From the NCBI GenBank assembly GCA_021325195.1, contig JAJPHQ010000037.1, positions 1 to 64,000 on the forward strand: 64,000 nucleotides of DNA, written 5' to 3'. The position numbers and the translations under genes were made by a program. Below are positions 3,503 through 50,577 of the stretch, piece by piece. The stretch comes from Gammaproteobacteria bacterium (GTDB lineage Bacteria > Pseudomonadota > Gammaproteobacteria > Xanthomonadales > Rhodanobacteraceae). Each line of letters begins with the position of its first letter. Within the stretch, counting starts at the first letter, position 1. Under the pieces are notes generated by a model that had not been told where the DNA came from, searched no databases, and saw nothing but the letters and a program-made list of their open reading frames with translations.

Positions 3503-4005
3503 CGGGCCATCAACATCACTACCAGGTCGACGTGGAATGGATGGGCAATCGCGGGACCGGCACGGATGGGTATCGCAACTACGGCCGCGAGCACGTGATC
3601 CGGATCGACGGCAAGCCCGACATCATGGGGTCGTCCGATCCGGCGTTTCGCGGTGACGCGACGAAGCACAATCCCGAGGAGATGCTGGTGGCCGCGCTGT
3701 CCACCTGTCACATGCTGGCCTATCTGCACGTCGCCACGCTCGCGGGCGTGGTGGTGACGGCTTACACCGACGCCGCGGAAGGCACGATGGCAACGCAAGG
3801 CAAAGGCGGTCACTTCACCGAAGTGGTGTTGCGTCCGGTGGTGACGATCTCGTCCGGGAGCGACCCCGCCAAGGCTCAAGCGGCGCACGACGACGCACAC
3901 CACGCCTGTTTTATCGCCGCGTCCGTCAATTTTCCGGTGCGTTGCGAACCGCGCGTCGTGGTTGAGAAGCCGGGACTTGGGACTCGGGACCCGGGACTCG
4001 GTTGA
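3499..4005 (+). CDS. OsmC family protein
   Basis: Small thiol-dependent hydroperoxide reductase-like protein of the OsmC/Ohr superfamily, 168 residues from a GTG that overlaps the argF' stop. The two reactive cysteines of the family are visible, in STCHMLAYLH and in HHACFIAASVNFPV. Translational coupling puts it inside the arginine operon, although no enzymatic link to arginine is known to me. The last ten or so residues (GLGTRDPGLG) are encoded by a tandem GGGACTC heptad repeat and are probably not part of the original protein. Substrate unknown. Confidence 0.88.
   Translation: MTGHQHHYQVDVEWMGNRGTGTDGYRNYGREHVIRIDGKPDIMGSSDPAFRGDATKHNPEEMLVAALSTCHMLAYLHVATLAGVVVTAYTDAAEGTMATQGKGGHFTEVVLRPVVTISSGSDPAKAQAAHDDAHHACFIAASVNFPVRCEPRVVVEKPGLGTRDPGLG
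3972..4001 (+). repeat. GGGACTC heptad array
   Basis: Four tandem heptads (GGGACTT, GGGACTC, GGGACCC, GGGACTC) followed by GG, lying in frame at the very end of the OsmC gene. The same heptads flank the 98-bp repeat copies in argG, argE and lpxB, and a matching array lies at 41120-41149. Confidence 0.85.
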
Positions 4006-4059
4006 AGCCAAGCCGCGCCGGCAACGTTCTCCATGACCATCAATTGCCCAGGAAACCAC

Positions 4060-5373
4060 ATGTCATCACAAGCTGCTTCCGCGGGTCCCGAGTCCCGAGA
4101 AACTCGCCGCTCCTGCGGCTCGCCCTCCGGGCCGGCTTCGCCGTTCGCTTCGGCATCCTGCCTTCGCAGTTCGAGTCCCGCAAGCAAGGACATCGTGCTT
4201 GCTTTCAGCGGTGGTCTCGACACCAGCTTCTGCGTGCCGTATTTGCAGGAACGCGGCTGGCGCGTGCATACCGTGTTCGCCGACACCGGCGGCGTGGGCG
4301 CGGAAGAGCGCGCGTACATCGAATCGCGTGCACATGAACTTGGTGTCGCCTCGCACATCACCGTCGATGGCGGTCCCGCGCTGTGGGAGCACTTCGTCAG
4401 GCCGTTCGTGTGGGCGGGCGAGGGTTACCAGGGCCAGTATCCGCTGCTGGTTTCGGATCGTTACCTGATCGTGGAAGCGGCGATCAAGCGCGCGGCCGAA
4501 CTCGGCACCCGCGCGATCGCGCACGGCTGCACCGGCATGGGCAACGACCAGGTGCGGTTCGACCTCGCGGTGAAGGCGCTGGGCGATTACGAGATCGTCG
4601 CGCCGATCCGCGAGATCCAGAAGGAACACACCGCGGTGCGCGCATACGAGCAGGAATACCTGAAGCAGCGCGGCTTCGAGGTGCGCGCCAAACAGCAGGC
4701 CTACACCATCAACGAAAACCTGCTGGGCGTCACGCTGTCGGGCGGCGAGATCGACCGCTGGGAGGCGCCGGGCGAAGGCGCACGCGGCTGGTGCCGGCCC
4801 CGTTCCGAATGGCCGTCCGAACCCCTGCGGGTGAAGGTCGGATTCGTCGGTGGCGAGGCGAAAACGCTGGATAGCGAGCGCGTCGCGGGCCACATGCTGC
4901 TGGCTAGGCTGAATCACCAGTTCGCGCAGTACGGTGTGGGCCGCGGCAGCTACACCGGCGACACCACCATCGGACTGAAGGGCCGGATCGTGTACGAAGC
5001 GCCGGGGCTGGTCGCGCTGCTGACCGCACATCGGGCGCTGGAAGAAGCGGTGCTGAGCAAGCAGCAGAACCGCTTCAAGCCCGAGGTCGCGCGCAAGTGG
5101 GTGGAGCTGGTGTACGAGGGCTTTTTCCACGATCCGCTGAAGACCGATCTGGAGGCGTTCCTCGCGTCCAGCCAGCGTTGCGTCAATGGCGAGGTGACCC
5201 TGGAAACCTGCGGCGGCCGCGTCGATGCGGTGGCCGTCACGTCGAAACACATCCTCAGCGCCAGGGGCGCGACCTACGCCCAGACCGCCGACTGGGGCGT
5301 GGCCGAGGCCGAGGGTTTCATCAAGCTGTACGGGATGAGTTCGACGCTGTGGGCCGAGGTCAACCGCAAATGA
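4060..5373 (+). CDS. argG: Argininosuccinate synthase with repeat-derived N-terminal extension
   Basis: ATP-dependent joining of citrulline and aspartate in arginine synthesis. The ATP-pyrophosphatase P-loop SGGLDTS is at about residues 49-55, and the family blocks [29 protein letters not shown] and SGGEIDRWE are present. The sequence closely resembles Xanthomonas ArgG, which begins MSKDIV. Here the ATG at 4060 (AGGAAA 6 nt upstream) is followed by about 40 extra residues before SKDIV, encoded by the 98-bp repeat. An upstream in-frame ATG at 4033 lacks an SD. Product 437 residues. The stop overlaps the argE start. Confidence 0.95.
4083..4180 (+). repeat. 98-bp structured repeat, copy A (in argG)
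   Basis: Begins with GGGTCCC GAGTCCC and ends with GAGTCCCG. Between these heptads lies a chain of short hairpins with tight loops, such as GCCGC-TCCT-GCGGC and CGGC-TTCG-CCG. It is nearly identical to the copies at 5376-5473 (inverted) and 41240-41337. It is open in the argG frame and encodes the N-terminal extension. Confidence 0.9.
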
Positions 5374-6695
5374 AGCGGGACTCGGACTGCGAAGGCAGGA
5401 TGCCGAAGCGAACGGCGAAGTCGGCCCGGAGGGCGGGCCGCAGGAGCGGCGAGTTTCTCGGGACCCGGGACCCGGCATTGCTCGAGGCGACACTGGTCCA
5501 TTTGCGTGCGCTGGTCGGGTTCGACACGCGCAATCCGCCGCGCGCGATCGGCACGGGCGGCATCTTCGATTACCTGCGGGCGCAGTTGCCGGGCTTCCAC
5601 GTGCGCGTGACCGACCATGGCGCAGGCGCGGTGTCGTTGTTCGCCGTGCGGGGAAAACCGAAGCTGCTGTTCAACGTGCACCTCGACACCGTGCCGGACT
5701 CGCCGCAGTGGAGTGCCAGCCCGTTCGAACTGCGCGTGACCACGGATCGCGCGATCGGTTTGGGCGCCTGCGACATCAAGGGCGCGGCGGCCGGCTTGCT
5801 GGCGGTGGCCAACGCATCGAGCGGCGACATGGCGTTGCTGTTCACTTCAGACGAGGAAGGCGCCGATCCGCGCTGTGTTCGCACGTTTTTGGATGCTTTT
5901 CTCCCTCTCCCTTCGGGAGAGGGTCGGGGTGAGGGTACGCGCGGAGCGGAGCATTTCCGCAATGCCGAACCCTCACCCCAGCGCTGCGCGCTCGGCGCTA
6001 CGCACCGCCTCTCCCGGGGGGAGAGGGGCTTTCAAGCCGTCATCGTCGCCGAACCCACCCGCTGTCGGGCGGTGCTCGCGCATCGCGGCATCCAGTCGGT
6101 GCGCGTGCGTTTCGAAGGCCGCGCGGGACATGCATCGGGCGAGCAGAAGCCGTCCGACAACGCCCTGCATCAGGCCGTGCGCTGGAGCACCGCCGCGCTG
6201 GATTTCGCCGAGTCGCAGTCCAAGGAGAGCTTCGGCGGATTGCACGGCCTGCGCTTCAACATCGGCCGCATCGAGGGCGGCATCAAGGCCAACATGATCG
6301 CGCCGGAGGCGGAACTGCGTTTCGGGATCCGGCCGCTGCCGTCCATGGACATGGACGGATTGCTGGAACGTTTCCGCACCCTGGTGGAGCCCGCGCCCGC
6401 GGCGTTCGAGGAAACGTTTCGCGGTTCACCGCTGCCTGCCGACGCGGCCCGCGCGGAATTGCACAGACGCGATGCGCACGGGCTTGCGGAGGGGCTGGGG
6501 ATCCCTGTCGGCGACGCGGTCGATTTCTGGACCGAGGCCGCACTGTTCTCGCAAGCCGGATACACCACGTTCGTGTACGGTCCGGGTGACATCGCGCAGG
6601 CGCACGGCGCGGACGAATGGGTCGAGCTTGCGCAGTTGCATCGCTACACGGCATCGGTTTTGCGGATCGTCGGGGGCGGCCTGCATGAACGCTGA
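5370..6695 (+). CDS. argE: Acetylornithine/acetylcitrulline deacetylase, M20 family, with two repeat-derived insertions
   Basis: Zinc-dependent M20 peptidase-fold deacetylase; in the acetylated-intermediate pathway it probably releases citrulline from N-acetylcitrulline. Metal-site motifs are VHLDT near residue 103, [11 protein letters not shown] near 134 and DEEG with the catalytic glutamate near 160. The dimerisation domain starts around GRAGHASG. The ATG at 5370 overlaps the argG stop. The first 34 or so residues come from repeat copy B, and family homology starts only at [22 protein letters not shown] second insert of about 43 residues (near residues 178-220) comes from a palindromic element. 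The product is 441 residues, longer than expected for this family. Confidence 0.9.
5376..5473 (-). repeat. 98-bp structured repeat, copy B (at start of argE)
   Basis: Inverted relative to copy A and about 4 mismatches from it. It starts one codon into argE and carries two GGGACCC heptads at its argE-interior end. The insert supplies the N-terminus of ArgE, including alternative ATG codons, without introducing a stop. Confidence 0.9.
5901..6028 (+). repeat. 128-bp palindromic element inside argE
   Basis: Each end carries its own hairpin: a perfect 9-bp one, CCCTCTCCC-TTC-GGGAGAGGG, at 5903-5923, and CCTCTCCC-GGG-GGGAGAGG at the other end. An internal 11-bp perfect inverted repeat (GGGGTGAGGGT 5926-5936 with ACCCTCACCCC 5969-5979) pairs the halves. 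It resembles the dispersed CCCTCTCCC intergenic palindromes common in proteobacteria but lies in frame within the coding sequence. A half copy lies at 54348-54370. Confidence 0.88.
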
Positions 6696-8015
6696 AATCG
6701 ACACGCGCAAGACCATCGTGCGGTTGCTGTCGGCGATGGGCAGCGCGCGCGAAATCCAGCAGTACCTGAAGCGCTTTTCGCAACTGGATGCGCGGCGTTT
6801 CGCCGTCGTCAAGGTGGCGGCGCGGTGCTGCGCGACGATTTGACCGAACTGGCCTCGTCGCTGACCTTCCTGCAGCGCGTGGGCCTGACCCCGATCGTGG
6901 TGCACGGCGCCGGTCCGCAGCTCGACAAGGAACTGGAAGCCGCGGGGATCGAAAAAAGGACCGTCAACGGCCTGCGCGTGACGCCGCCTCAGGCGCTGGG
7001 CATCGTGCGTCGCGTGTTTCACCAGCAGAACCTCGCGCTGGTCGATGCGCTGCACGCGATGGACACGCGCGCGACGTCGGTCGTTTCCGGCGTTTTCACC
7101 GCGAGCTTTCTGGATCGGGAGAACTGCGGGCTGGTCGGCAGGATCGAACGCATCGAGCTCGCGCCCATCGACGCCAGCCTGCGCGCGGGCTCGATTCCGG
7201 TGATCGCCAGCCTCGGCGAAACCGAGGAAGGCCAGATCCTCAACATCAACGCCGATTTTGCGGCCAACGAGCTGGTGAGGGTGCTGCAACCTTACAAGAT
7301 CGTGTACCTGACCGGCACCGGCGGCCTGCTGGACGGCGAGGGCAAGGTGATCGACTCGATCAATCTTTCCACCGAATACGAGCCGTTGATGGCGCAGCCG
7401 TGGGTCACGGGCGGCATGCGCCTGAAGCTGGAACAGATCGCGGACCTCCTGCGCGACCTGCCGCCGACCTCGTCGGTGTCGATCACGCGGCCCGCGGAAC
7501 TGGCGCGCGAGCTGTTCACCCACAAGGGTTCCGGCACGCTGGTACGGCGCGGCGAGAAGGTGCTGCGCTTCGAATCGTGGGACGGCGTGGATCGCGAGCG
7601 TTTGCGCGCGTTGATCGAATCGGGCTTCGCACCGCGCCGGCTGGTGGCGGACTATTTCGAGCGGACGCGGCCGCACCGTATTTACGTCAGCGAGAATTAC
7701 CGCGCGGCGATGATCCTGACGCTGGAGGACGGCCTGCCGTACCTCGACAAGTTCGCGGTGCTGGACGAGGCGCAGGGCGAGGGCCTGGGCCGCGCGGTGT
7801 GGCAGGTGATGCGCGCCGAAACCCCGCGGATGTTCTGGCGTTCGCGCCACGGCAATCGCGTGAACGCGTTCTACCACGAGCAATCCGACGGCTGTTTCAA
7901 GCTGGATGGTTTCAGGGTGTTCTGGTACGGACTGGATGGCGATTTCGCGCTGATCGCGCGATGTGTCGAGCACTGCGCGCAACGGGCGCCGACACTGGTG
8001 GCTGCAGATGGATAA
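6685..8015 (+). CDS. argB: Fused acetylglutamate kinase / N-acetylglutamate synthase, frameshifted near the 5' end
   Basis: Bifunctional enzyme of the Xanthomonas NAGS-K type: an N-terminal amino-acid kinase domain ([27 protein letters not shown]) and a C-terminal GNAT-like domain ([32 protein letters not shown]). The first part reads from the ATG at 6685 ([21 protein letters not shown]) to RFAVVKV. One base is missing in the G-run at about 6814-6820, so the expected [10 protein letters not shown] reads VAARCCATI and stops at 6843. The rest continues in another frame from 6825 to 8015. The start overlaps argE and the stop overlaps argC. Either a sequencing indel or a recent null mutation. Confidence 0.85.
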
Positions 8016-8958
8016 GCGAACGATTGGCATCGTCGGCGCACGCGGCCACACGGGGGCCGAGCTGATCCGGCTGATCGCCGCGCATCCCGCGCTGGAACTC
8101 GCCTTCGTGTCCTCGCGCGAGCTCGACGGCCAGCGCGTCGCCGCGCACAACGATGCGTATCACGGCGAACTGCGTTACGAGAACCTCGACCCCGCAGCCG
8201 TGGCCGCGAAGCGTGCGGACATCGTGATCCTGGCGCTCCCCAACGGGAAGGCTGCGCCCTTCGTGTCGGCCATCGATGCGGTCGCGCCTGACGCGCTGGT
8301 GGTCGATCTTTCCGCCGATCACCGTTTCGACGACAACTGGTACTACGGCCTGCCGGAACTGACGCGTGACAATTGGCGCGACGAGCGCCGGATCAGCAAC
8401 CCCGGCTGCTATGCCACCGCGATCGAATTGTCCGTCGCGCCGCTCAAGGATCTGCTGGCCGCGCCGCCGGTGTGTTTCGGCGTATCCGGATACTCCGGCG
8501 CGGGCACCACGCCATCGGACAGGAACGATCCGGAAAAGCTGCGCGACAACCTGATGCCCTACGCGCTGACCGGTCACCTGCACGAAAAGGAAGCGTCGTT
8601 CCATCTGGGCGTGCCGGTGGAGTTCATGCCACACGTCGCGCCGCATTTCCGCGGACTCACCGTCACCACCAACCTGTATCTTTCGCGTGCGTTGAAACGC
8701 GATGAGACGATTGCGCATTTCCGCGACGCCTACGATGGCGAGAAACTGGTTCGCATCGTGGACGACCCGCCATGGGTGAGCCGCATCGCGGGGCGGCACC
8801 ATGCCGAGATCGGCGGTTTCGCGATGTCGGCCGACGGCAAACGCGTGGTGATCGTCGCCACGCTGGACAATCTGCTGAAAGGTGCGGCCACGCAGGCGAT
8901 GCAGAACATCAATCGCGCGATCGGCGTGGACGAATGCACGGCGATTCCGCCGGATTGA
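8008..8958 (+). CDS. argC: N-acetyl-gamma-glutamyl-phosphate reductase
   Basis: NADPH-dependent reduction of acetylglutamyl phosphate, the step after acetylglutamate kinase. The N-terminal Rossmann motif is [13 protein letters not shown], the catalytic cysteine is in SNPGCYATA near residue 133, and the family block [14 protein letters not shown] follows. At 316 residues it has the length of the xanthomonad form. The start ATG at 8008 lies inside the end of argB (8-nt overlap), indicating coupled translation. The GTG/ATG codons further upstream do not match the family. Confidence 0.96.
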
Positions 8959-38929: not shown

Positions 38930-40701
38930 CACTTCAGGTCGTCCAGACGGCCGAACACCCACGCGCGGTAAGACTCGCGCAGCGCGGCATTGCGGCAGTC
39001 GAGATCGTGGCCCCCGCAGCGGTCGCGCAGCAGGGTGTTGGCGACGAAGAACGGATTGCGCGGCAGGTTCGCGGCGTCCAGCAGCAGCGAACCCAGGTAC
39101 GCAATGTCGAGCACGGGATAGTTCTCGCGCCGGACCGGCAGGTTGAAACCCTTCAGCATGTAATAGGTGACGTACTGCGGATCGGCCACCTCCGGCGGCA
39201 CGCTCTTGGCCAGCGCGTTGATCGCGCCGTCGAACGACGGCTGATGATCGCCGAAATGCAGCAGCAGCACGGGACGATCGTCGGTGCGCAGCAGCGTTTC
39301 CAGCTGCGTCATCGCCGCATCGGACATCGACAGGCGCTGCAGATAGTTCGCGAGGTTGAGGTTCAGCCAGTCGTCCAGCGGCTTGTTGCCGGGAGCGAGC
39401 TTGTCCGGAAACAACGGCTGGTTGTACGGGGGCGGCAGCTCGTGCAGCGGCGTCATGTGCGGGCCGTGCTGGTGCAGGGTCAGCATGAACAGGAATACCG
39501 GCTTGCCGTCCGCCTTGCGCTTTTCCTCCGCGAACACGCGCCGGAACGCGCGCACCAGATCGGCGTCGGTGGATTCCCAGCCCAGTCCGAGCTGTTCACC
39601 GCCATAGAACGCGTCGAAGCCGTAATCGGCGTAGGCGTCGCGGCCGTTCATGAAATCGCCGTCGGTGGGATAGATCGCGACGGTGCGGTAGCCGTCCGCG
39701 CGCAGCAGGCGCGGCAGCGTGAAGCGGATCCGCGGCGCCAGATTGAACGGCGCGTAGATCCCGGCCGGACCGAACACGATGTGCGGCAGACCGGTGAGAA
39801 ACGCGAATTCGGAAGTCCAGGTGCCGCCGCCCCAGGTGTGCACGTCCAGCCAGCCGTGCGCGATGGTGTCGGAATCGGCGTGGAACATCCGCGCGTCGCA
39901 CAGTCTTGACCCACACGCGGTGAGCATGCGTGGATCGAAGGTGCTTTCCTCCAGCACCGCGACGATGTCGGGTGCGCGATGCGGATCGGCAGGGGGCGCA
40001 GCGGGCAGGTGCAGCCAGTCGTCGAGCGTGGCATCGGCAGACCGGAACGGCGGCTCGCTGGCGTGGGTGCTGCGGATAGAGACGATGAAATCGGAAATGT
40101 AGCTGCGGTCGTTCATCGCCAGCCACATGCCCTTGTCGTGCACGGCGGCGAACGGGCCGTCCGGATTCATCGCGATCGCGAGGATCGCGGCCGCGGCCAG
40201 CACGCCGCCGGCGCGCGCCAGGCGCGTCTGCCAGCGCGCCGCGGGTTTGCGGTCGCCGCGCCAGGCCGCGATCAGCAGCAGCGGGATCAGGATCAGCGCG
40301 GCCACGATCGCCGTCACCAGCAGCGGATAGCGCGACAGCGTCTTCACGATCTCGGCGTTGAAGTAGTAGATCAGGTCCGGCGCCAGCAGCGGGGTGGACA
40401 GGTAGCGGAACTTCAGCGATGCAGCCACCACCAGCACCAGCATGGGCAGACAGCCGGCGACGATGCCGAATGCCGGCCGTCCGCTGGCGGCGGTGAAGAA
40501 CAGCACCAGGCCCGCGAGGATGCAGATCGCGAACCAGCATTCGATGGCGGTCTGTTCGCCCAGCGGGCCGAAGCACAGGGTGAGCAGCAGGATCGCCGCG
40601 GCCAGGGCGAACAGCCAGCCGCGACGGAAGGACAGCGGCCCGGATGCCGGCGCCGCCGCGCGTTTCGACCGCCGACCGGGGCAATCAGGCAGTACCGGCA
40701 T
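38929..40701 (-). CDS. LTA synthase family sulfatase-fold membrane protein
   Basis: Product of 590 residues with five N-terminal membrane segments (about residues 29-180) and a periplasmic alkaline-phosphatase/sulfatase-fold domain. The nucleophile region [17 protein letters not shown] carries the conserved Thr near residue 290. Metal-site segments [16 protein letters not shown] and [10 protein letters not shown] follow. The family transfers phosphoglycerol or phosphoethanolamine to envelope glycans or lipids. It overlaps lpxB by 17 nt and rnhB by 1 nt, so it is translated within the lipid A operon. The exact substrate is not known. Confidence 0.88.
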
Positions 40702-42130
40702 GGGGGCGTTCCGGTACTGGTGCGGCGAGCAGGTGTCCGATCACGCGGGCCGCCGCGGCCGCCGCGCCGCCGCCTGCGTGCAGCGACAGGTGCAGGCGTT
40801 CAAAGACGTTGACCATGCCCGCGCGCCGGGCCCGTTCCCGGAACAGGCGCAGTACCTCATCCGCGAGTTTTTCGGGTGTGCAATCGTGCTGCATCAGTTC
40901 AGGCACCACGCCTTCGCCCGCGAGAATGTTGGGCAGCGAATACACCTTCGTCTTCAGCATGCCGAGACCGCGGACGATGCCGTAGGTCAACGGCGCAATA
41001 CGATACCCCACCACCATCGGCCGTTTTGCCAGCATCGCTTCCAGCGCGGCGGTGCCCGAGGCCAGCAGCACCACGTCGGCGGCCACCAGCGCGCGATGGG
41101 CCTGGCCGTCCAGAAGCACGGGACCCGGGACTCGGGACTCGGGACTCGGTGATGGTTTGGAACTTGATGTTTTCAGTGCAGCGCTATCTGTAGTCAAGGC
41201 GCTTGATGTCTCGGCAATTGATGCACGTTCTGCTTTTTCGAGTCCCGAGTCCCGAGAAACTCGCCGCTCCTGCGGCTCGCCCTCCGGGCCGGCTTCGCCG
41301 TTCGCTTCGGCATCCTGCCTTCGCAGTCCGAGTCCCGATGCTTGCAGCAGTTTCTCGAGTTCAGCGCGGCACCCGGCATTCGCCGCCGGGATCACGATCT
41401 GCAGGTTCGGGATTGCTTCGGCGACACGCTGTGCAGCATCCACGAAGATCGCGCCGAGGCGATGGATTTCGGACAGCCGGCTGCCGGGCAGCACGGCCAG
41501 CACCGTCGCGTTTTGGTCGAGTCCAAGTTCGCGCCGCGCGGCGCCGCGATCCGGCACCAGCGGGAAACGGTCGGCCAGCGGGTGGCCCACGAATTGCGCA
41601 TTCACCCCGTAGCGCGCATAGATCGCGGGTTCCATCGGGAACAGGCACAGCACGCAGTCGGCACTTTCGCCCATTTTCGCGGCGCGGCGTTCGCGCCACG
41701 CCCATACCGACGGACTGACGTAGTGCACGGTGCGGATTCCGGCACGCTTCAGCCGCTTCTCCAGCCCGAGATTGAAATCCGGCGCATCCACGCCGATGAA
41801 CATGTCCGGTTTCAGCGCGGCAATCCGTTTTACAAGAGCAGAACGCAGCCGCAGCAGGCGTGGCAGATGCCGCAGCACTTCCGCCAGTCCCATCACCGAC
41901 AGTTCGCCGATGTCATGCCAGCAATCCATGCCAGCGTCGCGCATGCGCGGGCCCCCGACACCGACGAAACGCGCGTCGGGAAAACGCAGGCGCAGTGCCT
42001 CGATCAGGTCGGCGCCCAGCTGGTCGCCGGAATCCTCGCCCGCGACGAGGGCGAAAACGGGGCCCGGGGGGCGGGGACCGATGGTCGTAAGGGGCGGTGC
42101 GCCACCGGCATCGTTGGCAGACTCGTTCAT
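40685..42130 (-). CDS. lpxB: Lipid-A-disaccharide synthase with repeat-derived insertion
   Basis: Joins UDP-2,3-diacylglucosamine and lipid X to make the lipid A disaccharide, at the inner membrane. Family blocks are AGEDSGDQLGADLI, VDAPDFNLGL, YVSPSVWAWRE, FVGHPLADR, VLPGSR and LLASGTAALEAMLAKRPMVVGYR. The product is 481 residues where about 390 is usual. The excess is an insert of about 74 residues at residues 265-338, between LEKLLQAS and VLLDGQAHRAL. It is encoded by a heptad array, about 90 nt of unrelated sequence and repeat copy C. The frame is intact and all catalytic blocks remain. Confidence 0.93.
   Translation of the reverse strand: MNESANDAGGAPPLTTIGPRPPGPVFALVAGEDSGDQLGADLIEALRLRFPDARFVGVGGPRMRDAGMDCWHDIGELSVMGLAEVLRHLPRLLRLRSALVKRIAALKPDMFIGVDAPDFNLGLEKRLKRAGIRTVHYVSPSVWAWRERRAAKMGESADCVLCLFPMEPAIYARYGVNAQFVGHPLADRFPLVPDRGAARRELGLDQNATVLAVLPGSRLSEIHRLGAIFVDAAQRVAEAIPNLQIVIPAANAGCRAELEKLLQASGLGLRRQDAEANGEAGPEGEPQERRVSRDSGLEKAERASIAETSSALTTDSAALKTSSSKPSPSPESRVPGPVLLDGQAHRALVAADVVLLASGTAALEAMLAKRPMVVGYRIAPLTYGIVRGLGMLKTKVYSLPNILAGEGVVPELMQHDCTPEKLADEVLRLFRERARRAGMVNVFERLHLSLHAGGGAAAAAARVIGHLLAAPVPERPHAGTA
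41120..41149 (+). repeat. GGGACTC heptad array inside lpxB
   Basis: Tandem GGGACCC followed by three GGGACTC and GG, matching the array at 3972-4001. It forms one end of the 222-bp insertion in lpxB. Confidence 0.85.
41240..41337 (+). repeat. 98-bp structured repeat, copy C (inside lpxB)
   Basis: Same orientation on the plus strand as copy A and antisense to lpxB. It differs from copy A at only two or three positions and is bounded by GAGTCCC heptads. It is read through by lpxB as [16 protein letters not shown] and onward. Confidence 0.9.
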
Positions 42131-47310: not shown

Positions 47311-48675
47311 CTATGAAACGATCCGCAGGATGTCGTTGTAGAACGCCAGCCCCATGATCATCACCAGCAGCACCACGCCCAGATACTGGCCCACCGCCAT
47401 CGCGCGCTCCGAGAGCGGGCTGCCCTTGACCAGTTCGATCAGGTAGTAGAGCAGGTGGCCGCCGTCCAGGATCGGGATCGGCAGCAGGTTCATGATGCCG
47501 AGGCTGAGCGAAATGATGCCGAGGAAATACAGGAACCACGCCACGCCCATCTCGGCCGAGGCATTGGCGTACTGCGCGATCGAGATCGGGCCGGACAGGT
47601 TCTTCAGCGATGCCGAGCCGGTCAGCATGTCGCCCAGCATCGACAGCGTGCGCGAGGTGAGATCCCAGGTTTGCGCAAAGGCCGCCGGAATCGCCGCGAG
47701 CGGGCCGCGGCGCAGCACGGTGTCGTAATGCGCGGTGGCCGCCTGCGCGTAGATGCCGATCGCGTATTCGGTGCTGCCGTCGGGAAGCCTGGTGGGTCTG
47801 GGTTGCACGGCCAGGGTCAGCCTGTGGCCGCCGCGGTCGAGTTCGAGGGTCAGCGTCTTGTGCGGTCCCGCGTCGGCGTGGGGCAGGTTGACCAGGTCGT
47901 TCCAGTCGCGCACGGCGGTGCCGTCGATCGCGAGCACGCGGTCACCCGGTTCGAGGCCCGCCGCCACGGCTGCGCTGCCCGGCACCAGCTTGCCGATCAC
48001 CGGCGGCAGCGAGCGCTGCAGCGGGACCAGCCCCGTGCGTTCGACGATGGCCTGATCGCTCAGATGATCGGGCAGCTTCTCGAAATGCAGCACGCGGACG
48101 TGCACGCTGCCGTCGGCATCGCGCACCTGCACCGGGGTGGGCCGGTGCGATTGCGCGGCATCCGCGAGTGCGAGGCCCAGATCGGTCCAGGTGGCGACCG
48201 GCTGGCCGTCCACACTCAGCACGCGCTCGCCGCGCTGGAAGCCGGCCTGCGCCGCCAGCGCCGACACGTCGCCCACCAGCGGCTGGAAATCGGGCTTGCC
48301 GATCACCAGCATCGCCCAGAACGCCGCGACCGCGAAGATCAGGTTGAACACGGGGCCAGCCAGCACGACCGCGATGCGCTGCCAGATCGGCTTGCCGGTG
48401 AATTCGCGCGCGCGTTCGGCGGCGGGCACGTCGCCTTCGCGCGCGTCCAGCATCTTGACGTAGCCGCCCAGCGGAATCCACGCCACGCAGTATTCGGTGC
48501 CGTCCCTGCCGAACCACGACTTGATCGGCTTGCCGAAGCCCACCGAGAAGCGCAGCACCCTGACGCCACAGCGGCGCGCCACCCAGAAATGACCGAACTC
48601 GTGGAAGGTCACCAGCACGCCCAGGGTGACGATCATCCACCAGACGGATTCGAGGAAATTCAACAGTTGGGCCAT
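47311..48675 (-). CDS. rseP: RIP metalloprotease RseP
   Basis: Site-2-type intramembrane zinc protease that cleaves anti-sigma factor RseA and remnant signal peptides. The HEXXH motif is HEFGH near residue 22, and the second metal-ligand motif is NLLPIPILDGG near residue 400. Two PDZ domains in between start near SALAAQAGFQRGERVLSV and PGSAAVAAGLEPGDRVLAI. Product 454 residues with four membrane segments. In most gammaproteobacteria dxr directly precedes it; here only a remnant does. Confidence 0.96.
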   Translation of the reverse strand: MAQLLNFLESVWWMIVTLGVLVTFHEFGHFWVARRCGVRVLRFSVGFGKPIKSWFGRDGTEYCVAWIPLGGYVKMLDAREGDVPAAERAREFTGKPIWQRIAVVLAGPVFNLIFAVAAFWAMLVIGKPDFQPLVGDVSALAAQAGFQRGERVLSVDGQPVATWTDLGLALADAAQSHRPTPVQVRDADGSVHVRVLHFEKLPDHLSDQAIVERTGLVPLQRSLPPVIGKLVPGSAAVAAGLEPGDRVLAIDGTAVRDWNDLVNLPHADAGPHKTLTLELDRGGHRLTLAVQPRPTRLPDGSTEYAIGIYAQAATAHYDTVLRRGPLAAIPAAFAQTWDLTSRTLSMLGDMLTGSASLKNLSGPISIAQYANASAEMGVAWFLYFLGIISLSLGIMNLLPIPILDGGHLLYYLIELVKGSPLSERAMAVGQYLGVVLLVMIMGLAFYNDILRIVS

Positions 48676-48741
48676 GGGGCTAGCGGACTGCCGGTGACGG
48701 ATCGCGGCTCGTGAGTGGGTGCCTGTTCCCGCGGGTGACGG

Positions 48742-48997
48742 TCATCGCGCCGCAACCCGTTTTTCGATGATACGGTGCGCGGCCGAACGCGCCGTTAAAT
48801 CGCGTTCCGGAAGGGTCTCCACGTCGACCGCGGGCGGCGCGGACAGTTCCGGAAGCGTGCGCCCGATCACGCCGGAAGCGGCGGGGAGGGACGGGGCGCC
48901 GCCTGCATGCACGACGCGCCAGCGCGGGCGCGCGATCACGTCCTGCGCGCCGGCCTCGGTCGAGCCGGTGGCGCCCGGACACCGCGACGCCTTTCAT
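48742..48997 (-). pseudogene. dxr: Remnant of dxr (1-deoxy-D-xylulose-5-phosphate reductoisomerase)
   Basis: The stretch between cdsA and rseP, where dxr normally lies. From an ATG overlapping the cdsA stop it reads MKGVAV. Then, after a one-base frameshift, it reads GATGSTEAGAQDVIAR and RWRVVHA, which match the Dxr N-terminal NADPH-binding opening (GATGS, DVIAR). What follows directly is GVIGRTLPELSAPPAVDVETL and a helix ending AAHRIIEKRVAAR, resembling the Dxr C-terminus. About 320 central codons with all catalytic residues are missing. The similarity of the C-terminal part is by eye only. Confidence 0.6.
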
Positions 48998-49827
48998 AAG
49001 CCCAGCACCACCTTGCCTAGCACGAACACCGGCAGCGCGGCCACCAGCGAATCCATCCGGTCGAACAGACCGCCGTGGCCGGGAAACAGCGCGCCGGAGT
49101 CCTTCACGCCCGCATGCCGCTTGATCAGGCTTTCGAACAGGTCGCCCTCGATCGAAAACAGCACGGTGACCAGCGCCAGCACCACCATCGCCGGCAGGTG
49201 CCACGCCGGCACATGCAGCGCTGCCCCGCAAACCAGTCCGACCGCGCCGGAACAGACCAGCGCGCCGTACACGCCCTCGCGCGTCTTGCCGGGGCTGATC
49301 TTCGGCGCCAGCTTGTGGCGGCCCCAACGGCTGCCCGCGGAATAGGCGCCGATGTCGGCCGCTACCACGATCAGCGCGAAACACAGCACCCACCACTTGC
49401 CGTGCGGCGAGGCCGGCGTCAGGCGGTCACCGTGCAGCACCACCACCGCGCACCACGCCGGCACCACGATCAGCATGCCCGCCAGCAGTTTCAATATCAC
49501 GTGGTTGCGCGTGCGACTTGCCGCAAATTCGATGCGCATCAGCCACCACGGCGCCAGCAGCCACCAGATCAAACCCGCAAGCACCGGCGTCCACCACCAG
49601 CGCGTCTGGACCAGCGGCCAGCACAGTGCGAACAAAACCCCGTAGCCGGCCAGCAGCAGGGCGCGGAACGGATGGCCGCGCGCCCCCGCCATCCGGGTCC
49701 ACTCCCACAGGACCAGCAGGAAGATCAGCGCCAGCAGCGCCGCGAACACCGGCGTGGAAGCCAGGAAAATCAGCGCGAGCAGCAGCGGCGCGAGAACGAC
49801 GGCGGTGATGACGCGCTGCTTGAGCAT
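48994..49827 (-). CDS. cdsA: Phosphatidate cytidylyltransferase
   Basis: Makes CDP-diacylglycerol from CTP and phosphatidic acid, the branch point of phospholipid synthesis. Polytopic membrane protein of 277 residues with about seven or eight segments. The complete family signature is near the C-terminus: SLIKRHAGVKD, SGALFPGHGGLFDRMDS. The central KISPGKTREGVYGAL block is also diagnostic. It follows uppS by 6 nt, and its stop overlaps the ATG of the dxr remnant (ATGA). Confidence 0.96.
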   Translation of the reverse strand: MLKQRVITAVVLAPLLLALIFLASTPVFAALLALIFLLVLWEWTRMAGARGHPFRALLLAGYGVLFALCWPLVQTRWWWTPVLAGLIWWLLAPWWLMRIEFAASRTRNHVILKLLAGMLIVVPAWCAVVVLHGDRLTPASPHGKWWVLCFALIVVAADIGAYSAGSRWGRHKLAPKISPGKTREGVYGALVCSGAVGLVCGAALHVPAWHLPAMVVLALVTVLFSIEGDLFESLIKRHAGVKDSGALFPGHGGLFDRMDSLVAALPVFVLGKVVLGL

Positions 49828-49833
49828 GGAGGG

Positions 49834-50577
49834 TCAGCCGGTGCGTGCAGCCGGTTCCGGCGCGCGCCCGTAACGGCGTTCGCGGCGCGCGTAATCGTCC
49901 AGCGCGCGGGCGAGTTCGGCCTGATCCACGTCCGGCCACAGGGTGTCGGTGAAATACAGTTCGGTATAGGCGATCTGCCACAACAGGAAATTGCTGATCC
50001 TGCGTTCGCCGCCGGTGCGGATGAACAGATCCGGCGGGGGCAGGTCGGCGAGGCAGAAATACCTGGCCAGCGTGGTTTCGTCGATGGCATCGACGTCGAG
50101 CTCGCCGGCCGCGACGTCGCGCGCGGCCCGGCGCGCGGCCTGCGCGATGTCCCAGCGGCCGCCGTAATTCACGCACACGTTGAGCAGCAGCCTGGAATTG
50201 CCGGCGGTGCGTTCGGCGGCGCCACGCATCCGCGTACGGATCACCTCGGGAAACGCCGACAGTTCGCCCACGAAGCGCACCCGCACCTCGTTCTTGTGCA
50301 ACTCGTCCACTTCCTTGTCCAGCGCGCGCAGGAACAGGTCCATCAGCGCGCCGACCTCGGCGTCCGGACGCTTCCAGTTCTCCGAGGAGAACGCAAACAG
50401 CGTGAGCACCGCGACGCCCCGGCGCAGGCAGAACTCCACCGCCTCGCGCACCGCCTTCTGCCCGGCGCGGTGGCCGAAGCTGCGCGGCTGCGCGCGCGCG
50501 CGCGCCCAGCGGCCGTTGCCGTCCATCACGATCGCGATGTGGCCGGGGATGCAAGGTGGAGTGCCCGGGACATTCAT
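49834..50577 (-). CDS. uppS: Undecaprenyl diphosphate synthase
   Basis: cis-prenyltransferase that builds the C55 lipid carrier for peptidoglycan and O-antigen from farnesyl diphosphate and eight IPP. The substrate-binding MDGNGRWA motif is near residue 18, FSSENWKRP near 68, and the C-terminal IRTGGERRISNFLLWQ block is present. Product 247 residues. Since it needs isoprenoid precursors, it makes the missing dxr nearby notable. Confidence 0.96.
   Translation of the reverse strand: MNVPGTPPCIPGHIAIVMDGNGRWARARAQPRSFGHRAGQKAVREAVEFCLRRGVAVLTLFAFSSENWKRPDAEVGALMDLFLRALDKEVDELHKNEVRVRFVGELSAFPEVIRTRMRGAAERTAGNSRLLLNVCVNYGGRWDIAQAARRAARDVAAGELDVDAIDETTLARYFCLADLPPPDLFIRTGGERRISNFLLWQIAYTELYFTDTLWPDVDQAELARALDDYARRERRYGRAPEPAARTG

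Follow-up and report, generated by a model that had tools for sequence, protein, structure and literature searches.

Replacement of the MEP route by the mevalonate pathway has been described in bacteria (PMC13001223) and resembles the case reported here: MEP genes were lost, a mevalonate operon was gained, and members of a single genus differ from each other. The main text of that study (species table excluded) does not mention Xanthomonad, Rhodanobacter, Lysobacter or Gammaproteobacteria, and its relevant sections are silent on how the dxr site decays and on any alteration of Dxs. Two further systems are comparable to parts of this locus. In E. coli, a sigma-E promoter precedes rseP, which thus answers to the sigma factor of the very pathway in which it acts; here, in contrast, the boxes are part of the dxr 3′ end and have survived the loss of that gene. 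Loop-truncated Dxs is known from crystallography (PMC10504544, PMC9068908), and the same stretch is concerned here, except that its loss is natural, repeated and tied to MEP loss. The open-licence literature searched yielded no description of this family exchanging MEP for mevalonate, of dxr harboring a promoter of rseP, or of the Dxs loop disappearing along with such an exchange. Pathway swaps of this type are already known, and the convergent loss of the Dxs loop is probably new. Specialists may be interested in the putative promoter embedded in dxr, in full-length Dxr with altered sites and, above all, in the convergent Dxs loop loss.

We analyzed a stretch of 64,000 nucleotides from a Rhodanobacteraceae genome (the window) together with its relatives. 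The explanation that we consider very likely as a whole combines a MEP-to-mevalonate swap, a dxr deletion stub with an embedded promoter and repeated loss of the Dxs loop; MEP loss is read from Dxr, IspF and IspG only, and promoter activity, the role of Dxs, pathway flux and the order of events are inferred. The lineage of this organism, placed in Rhodanobacteraceae by its nearest named relative, would have gained a mevalonate operon beside hopanoid genes, in which one fused gene encodes HMG-CoA reductase and mevalonate kinase, and the MEP-specific genes would have been lost after that gain. At the dxr site, an internal deletion of about 0.95 kb would have spared a 5′ stub, now frameshifted, and the 3′ end; the latter would persist because an RpoE-type promoter and a −10-like element of rseP lie inside it. 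In the other dxr-less members of the genus, little beyond the boxes remains recognizable. Dxs would have been retained, presumably for thiamin and pyridoxal phosphate, and would have lost a loop that cut enzymes do not need for catalysis. The case is thus read as an essential pathway swap within a gammaproteobacterial family, with living relatives at graded stages of decay: intact dxr, a full-length frame with a changed active site, a deletion stub, and little but promoter boxes.

The dxr slot between cdsA and rseP

Three genes around the site are full length and lie on the minus strand. The gene rseP (47,311 to 48,675), encoding the site-2 protease of the sigma-E pathway, scored 366.9 bits against TIGR00054 (cut-off, 147.55). 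The cdsA gene (48,994 to 49,827) matched NF008635 with an E value of 2e−53 and 181.5 bits, below the cut-off of 385, and is present in 14 of 16 genomes of the genus. The uppS gene (49,834 to 50,577) scored 297.8 bits against TIGR00055 (cut-off, 109.55); since it is intact, isoprenoid precursors are still required. The slot for dxr, comprising the remnant and the stretch preceding rseP, runs on the minus strand from 48,676 to 48,993, bounded by the start of rseP at 48,675 and the end of cdsA, stop codon included, at 48,994. It measures 318 nt, while the same slot has 1,174 to 1,298 nt in ten relatives with a full-length dxr frame. No full-length Dxr frame with NADPH and metal sites is found in the slot of the window, only the 318-nt remnant.

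Local DNA alignment identified both ends of the lost gene, using as references the two dxr-bearing members of the same genus (G055 and G138). The 5′ remnant, encoding GATGS ... DVIAR with a frameshift, occupies the first 102 nt of the slot (48,892 to 48,993, minus strand) and aligned with the dxr 5′ end of G055 (z = 7.6) and of G138 (z = 8.0). The 3′ remnant with the stretch behind it (48,694 to 48,877, minus strand) aligned with the dxr 3′ end of the same genomes (z = 15.4 and 5.7, respectively). In each of these four tests, all 300 dinucleotide shuffles scored lower. The old dxr frame ends at a TGA at 48,742 to 48,744, the reading frame shifts near the start of the remnant, and the slot of G055 is longer than that of the window by 949 nt. 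These results show a remnant in which an internal deletion of about 0.95 kb joined some 100 nt of the dxr 5′ end to the 3′ end.

The first-pass annotation, made from sequence alone, had claimed that dxr is absent from its conserved place, leaving a slot of about 320 nt in which the Dxr N-terminus (GATGS..DVIAR) is joined, with one frameshift, to a segment resembling the C-terminus, and that uppS is intact. All of this held: the slot has 318 nt, both halves are significant in the alignments with dxr of relatives that it had suggested, the frameshift is seen, and UppS exceeds its cut-off. It was silent on why part of dxr had stayed and on any change in Dxs.

Loss of MEP genes and presence of a mevalonate operon

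The genome carrying the window (99.85% complete, 118 contigs) gave no match to the Dxr N-domain PF02670, which was matched in 10 of 14 named control genomes, so that no second type I Dxr was found with this profile either. IspF and IspG were also not found in this genome, each being matched in 9 of the 14 named genomes. Across the family, the Dxr N-domain was present somewhere in 126 of 147 sampled genomes. Within the genus it was missing from 9 of 11 sampled members and retained by the two alignment references, and all nine dxr-less members carry HMG-CoA reductase. An Rfam scan of the window gave no matches.

We found HMG-CoA reductase in 22 of 30 genomes examined. Nine of these belong to this genus and eleven to a second one (g18), and G130 and G137 each represent a further genus. 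None of the 22 had IspF, which was present in all eight other genomes of its panel. We call these eight IspF-bearing genomes MEP genomes (G055, G138, G026, G023, G001, G025, G004, and G012). All of them have Dxr and none has HMG-CoA synthase; the five searched for HMG-CoA reductase (G055, G138, G004, G026, and G012) lacked it, the other three not being part of that search. IspG exceeded its cut-off in only 1 of the 22 genomes with HMG-CoA reductase (G118). This lone IspG lies on a 3.6-kb contig (G118:C14; loci L033 and L056) and scores above the family's own IspG; it looks foreign and is probably contamination. A weak IspG match in G083 remained below the cut-off. Three drafts that are 82 to 90% complete (G111, G121, and G122) had no dxr match, kept IspG and lacked HMG-CoA reductase, and are likely to be gapped drafts. 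The pattern of profile presence and absence is shown by these searches.

In the genome of the window, contig C3 carries, in this order, hpnA, diphosphomevalonate decarboxylase, a GHMP kinase, HMG-CoA reductase-mevalonate kinase, IPP isomerase type 1, hpnH and hpnB. HMG-CoA reductase, mevalonate kinase, diphosphomevalonate decarboxylase and IPP isomerase exceeded their cut-offs (TIGR00532, TIGR00549, TIGR01240, and TIGR02150). The GHMP kinase had its best match with TIGR01220 (96.9 bits, below the cut-off of 165.7), and the score leaves its identity as phosphomevalonate kinase unsettled. HMG-CoA synthase is encoded elsewhere, on contig C103, with 58.1 bits against PF01154 (cut-off, 25) and, against TIGR01835, an E value of 3e−45 and 154.7 bits, below the cut-off of 360.35. 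PF01154 was matched in 20 of the 30 genomes, corresponding to the mevalonate members of the genus and of g18. It had no match in G130 and G137 (loci L051 and L052), nor near their operon, and these two may possibly use a different HMG-CoA synthase. Reading a 20-kb region in ten relatives (six of the genus, two of g18, G130, and G137) showed the same mevalonate gene order in each.

Two rival explanations bear on these results. An error of assembly or binning would mean that dxr was missed and that the mevalonate genes are contamination, and the genome is indeed a draft of 118 contigs. Against this, 9 of 11 members of the genus lack a Dxr match and the same nine have HMG-CoA reductase; two of them (G024 and G070) are single-contig genomes, which makes an assembly slip unlikely. 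The operon order is moreover identical in six other members of the genus, and IspF and IspG are absent too, which all but excludes this possibility. In the second, a type II DXR-like enzyme or another reductoisomerase would substitute for Dxr and the MEP route would still be running. The type II family PF21135 was matched in none of 30 genomes, but no control genome matched it either, so this search alone excludes nothing. However, none of the 22 genomes carrying HMG-CoA reductase has IspF, only one has an IspG above the cut-off, and a mevalonate set is present. Without IspF and IspG the MEP route could not be completed, and a substitute DXR is all but excluded as well.

The swap to mevalonate remains our preferred reading. 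The first-pass annotation had named three ways for the cell to manage: a further DXR, an enzyme of the type II DXR-like kind, or mevalonate. The searches it had proposed support the last option: the genome has no type I Dxr match, and the mevalonate set is there with IspF and IspG missing. Dxs is present, and the DXR-like profile, lacking a working control, carries no weight by itself.

The mevalonate operon adjoins hopanoid genes (L043:33-1022 and 6100-8372), of which hpnH was identified by TIGR03470; the others are taken to be hpnA and hpnB. At least one of the hopanoid genes lies within the region in 8 of the 10 relatives read, and this neighborhood may possibly be why the operon was gained. 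The fusion of HMG-CoA reductase to mevalonate kinase has 752 aa (L043:3206-5461). Of the 72 loci read, which come from several phyla and were drawn from the best 80 matches only, 61 had a frame longer than 650 aa, indicating the fusion. Fused frames were seen among gammaproteobacterial, Calditrichota, Acidobacteriota and Cryobacterium records, and a separate HMG-CoA reductase in the eight Bacillaceae records. No Dxs was found in the loci gathered for this comparison. In a quick tree of the fusion, this genus formed one clade, within which the nearest named record, a Rhodanobacteraceae MAG (L103), nests. A second clade brought together g18, G130 and G137 with a record of Nevskia and a further MAG from the proteobacteria. 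Two or more acquisitions of the operon are likely, though this is untested and the relation of the two clades is unresolved.

Promoter-like boxes and decay stages of dxr

The 3′ remnant contains sequences fitting promoters of the neighboring gene. RpoE promoters have a −35 GAAC and a −10 GTC as consensus, at a characteristic spacing. On the minus strand at 48,826 to 48,850, inside the old dxr 3′ end, lie boxes of the sigma-E (RpoE) type (GGAAC-N17-GTC), a putative rseP promoter; the −35 GAAC and −10 GTC are at RpoE-like spacing, and RpoE is encoded in the genome. The pattern GGAAC-N16..18-GTC, framed after the slots had been inspected, occurs in 19 of 21 dxr-less slots, with 0.16 expected from shuffles. 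The strict pattern fails in G070, which differs by a changed first base, and in G130. RpoE itself exceeded its cut-off in all 27 genomes of its search. The slot pattern was not found within 400 nt before rpoE in any of the 27 and occurred in only 2 over the whole rpoE loci. With the first base freed (GAACT-N16..18-GTC), a pattern set after reading the upstream region of the genome's own rpoE, it was found before rpoE in 26 of 27 (0.12 expected), the miss being G025.

A second conserved pair, TTTAAC-N21-TATCAT, lies on the minus strand at 48,767 to 48,799 and is shared with relatives; its TATCAT is −10-like. Four relatives (G055, G138, G026, and G001) have it within dxr, and G130 has it in its slot; none of 20,000 mononucleotide shuffles contained it for the window genome (G000) or for G130. 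G130, without the sigma-E boxes, keeps this pair, as it stands near the dxr end of its congener G026. The pair was rejected as a standard sigma-70 promoter on account of its N21 spacing.

One rival reading is that the 3′ remnant is the leftover of a recent deletion and the boxes functionless coding relics. In its favor, the remnant of the window is alignable along much of its length, and letters fitting the boxes are coding in dxr-bearing relatives: the GAAC-N17..19-GTC letters are dxr 3′ coding sequence in 4 of 6 such relatives outside g18 and in all four g18 genomes checked that have a full-length dxr frame. Against it stand the 11 other dxr-less members of the genus with a readable slot, in which little or no dxr is alignable (44 tests; at the fewest, 2 of 100 shuffles as high). 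These slots nonetheless retain GGAAC-N16..18-GTC in 10 of 11 cases and, beginning 32 to 37 nt before rseP, TAT[CG]AT in 11 of 11. In addition, rpoE itself carries boxes of the same kind. The relic reading is therefore unlikely. The slots of G137 and G130 held no clear alignable dxr, and the dxr 3′ end was alignable in all seven dxr-less g18 slots read.

The conservation of the boxes is shown, and their promoter activity and RpoE dependence are inferred from sequence. Selection on embedded rseP promoters is probably the simplest account for the retained stub: the dxr 3′ end would have been kept because the promoter elements of rseP lie within it. The persistence of the stub would thus be explained by the promoter of a neighbor embedded in a lost gene.

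Earlier stages of decay are seen in genus g18, where 7 of 16 genomes match the Dxr N-domain. One of them, the 86%-complete draft G155, has a frameshifted dxr that could be a sequencing error, and G038 has a nearly intact dxr frame although IspF and IspG are absent. The other five (G115, G135, G145, G153, and G154; loci L190 to L194) have full-length Dxr frames with alterations in the NKE, DSE and MNKGLE motifs. A partial DSE remains in G115 and G135, and G145 differs at only one MNKGLE residue. HMG-CoA reductase was present in all three of the five that were searched for it (G145, G115, and G135), and the two that were scanned with TIGR00243 scored 239.5 and 232.8, below the cut-off of 315.7. 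Mean pN/pS among the five was close to that of functional pairs in the N-domain (0.42 versus 0.40), higher in the catalytic part (0.66 versus 0.35) and lower over the final 75 codons (0.26 versus 0.42). The controls were five pairs, one including G038, and since pS is near 0.6 the ratios are rough. A ratio raised in the catalytic part and low at the end suggests relaxed selection on the catalytic part with a maintained frame, and it is likely, within the roughness of these ratios, that the frame is held most at the promoter-bearing end. Possibly, either a noncatalytic Dxr protein is still useful or frame breaks are costly to downstream genes.

Loop length in Dxs

The genome of the window retains Dxs, with 816.5 bits against TIGR00204 (cut-off, 465.95). 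PF13292 was matched in all 30 genomes, only weakly in G128, and Dxs was therefore read in 29. In the stretch aligned to residues 178 to 261 of E. coli Dxs, we counted 84 residues in all eight MEP genomes and in E. coli, and 43 to 66 in all 21 mevalonate genomes read, the leftovers differing among lineages. By alignment, the missing stretch is the flexible loop replaced by glycines in solved Dxs structures. The loop was cut by hand at 206 to 245 in P. aeruginosa, 197 to 240 in K. pneumoniae and 190 to 234 in M. tuberculosis numbering, and the cut Dxs stays active, the M. tuberculosis form being more stable than the native one (PMC10504544, PMC9068908). According to one of these studies, the loop is poorly conserved and takes no part in forming the active site (PMC10504544).

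All 21 swapped genomes in which Dxs was read combine a short Dxs with HMG-CoA reductase, which would also fit import of the short form along with the mevalonate operon instead of repeated loop loss. The Dxs tree built without the loop columns, however, follows the genera, and a single clade of short forms was rejected (p-AU = 0.000119), so that import is very unlikely. In this tree, the genus's short forms are placed as sister to the full-length Dxs of G055 and G138, and the short form of G130 joins G026. The tree needs three changes, which are also forced by the starred branches. At least three changes of loop length are hence shown on the Dxs tree, with one origin rejected. The tree does not give their direction; we infer that the loop was probably lost rather than gained, given its presence in E. 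coli and in the MEP relatives. An independent-pairs test found three pairs, all in agreement (two-sided P = 0.25), too few for significance within the family.

Our preferred reading remains repeated loop loss in an enzyme no longer feeding isoprenoid synthesis, the role of Dxs being inferred. Feedback inhibition of Dxs by IPP and DMAPP has been cited (PMC13001223). A bolder reading, against which we lean slightly and in which the role of the loop is conjectural, is that the loop serves only isoprenoid use (IPP/DMAPP feedback or hand-over of DXP to Dxr) and is lost repeatedly once Dxs feeds only vitamins. Repeated loop loss with the swap would make the loop a candidate site for control of the MEP route or for hand-over within it; this route is a target both for drugs and for engineering.

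Outside the family, ten records were hand-picked for short and long forms from 60 listed, of 105 matches in a plasmid collection. The loop stretch had 52 residues in Lactobacillus amylolyticus, in the chromid copy of Paraburkholderia caribensis and in the plasmid copies of Bacteroides finegoldii and Cetobacterium somerae, and 58 in Listeria monocytogenes. Lactobacillus uses mevalonate. The stretch was long in Caballeronia, Azospirillum, Parabacteroides and Spiroplasma records. A plasmid Dxs of Streptomyces olivoreticuli, with 53 residues in this stretch, lies beside ispG, a counter-example that argues against a strict loop rule. The short Lactobacillus, Paraburkholderia, Bacteroides, Cetobacterium and Listeria forms are distant, being 35 to 55% identical to the Dxs of the window genome, whereas the short form of the family derives from its native full-length enzyme.

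Apart from these genes, lpxB in the window (40,685 to 42,130, minus strand) encodes about 66 extra residues (residues 276 to 341). Parts of the DNA of this insert recur on the same strand near 3,987 to 4,148, and it is therefore likely to be a dispersed repeat inserted in frame.
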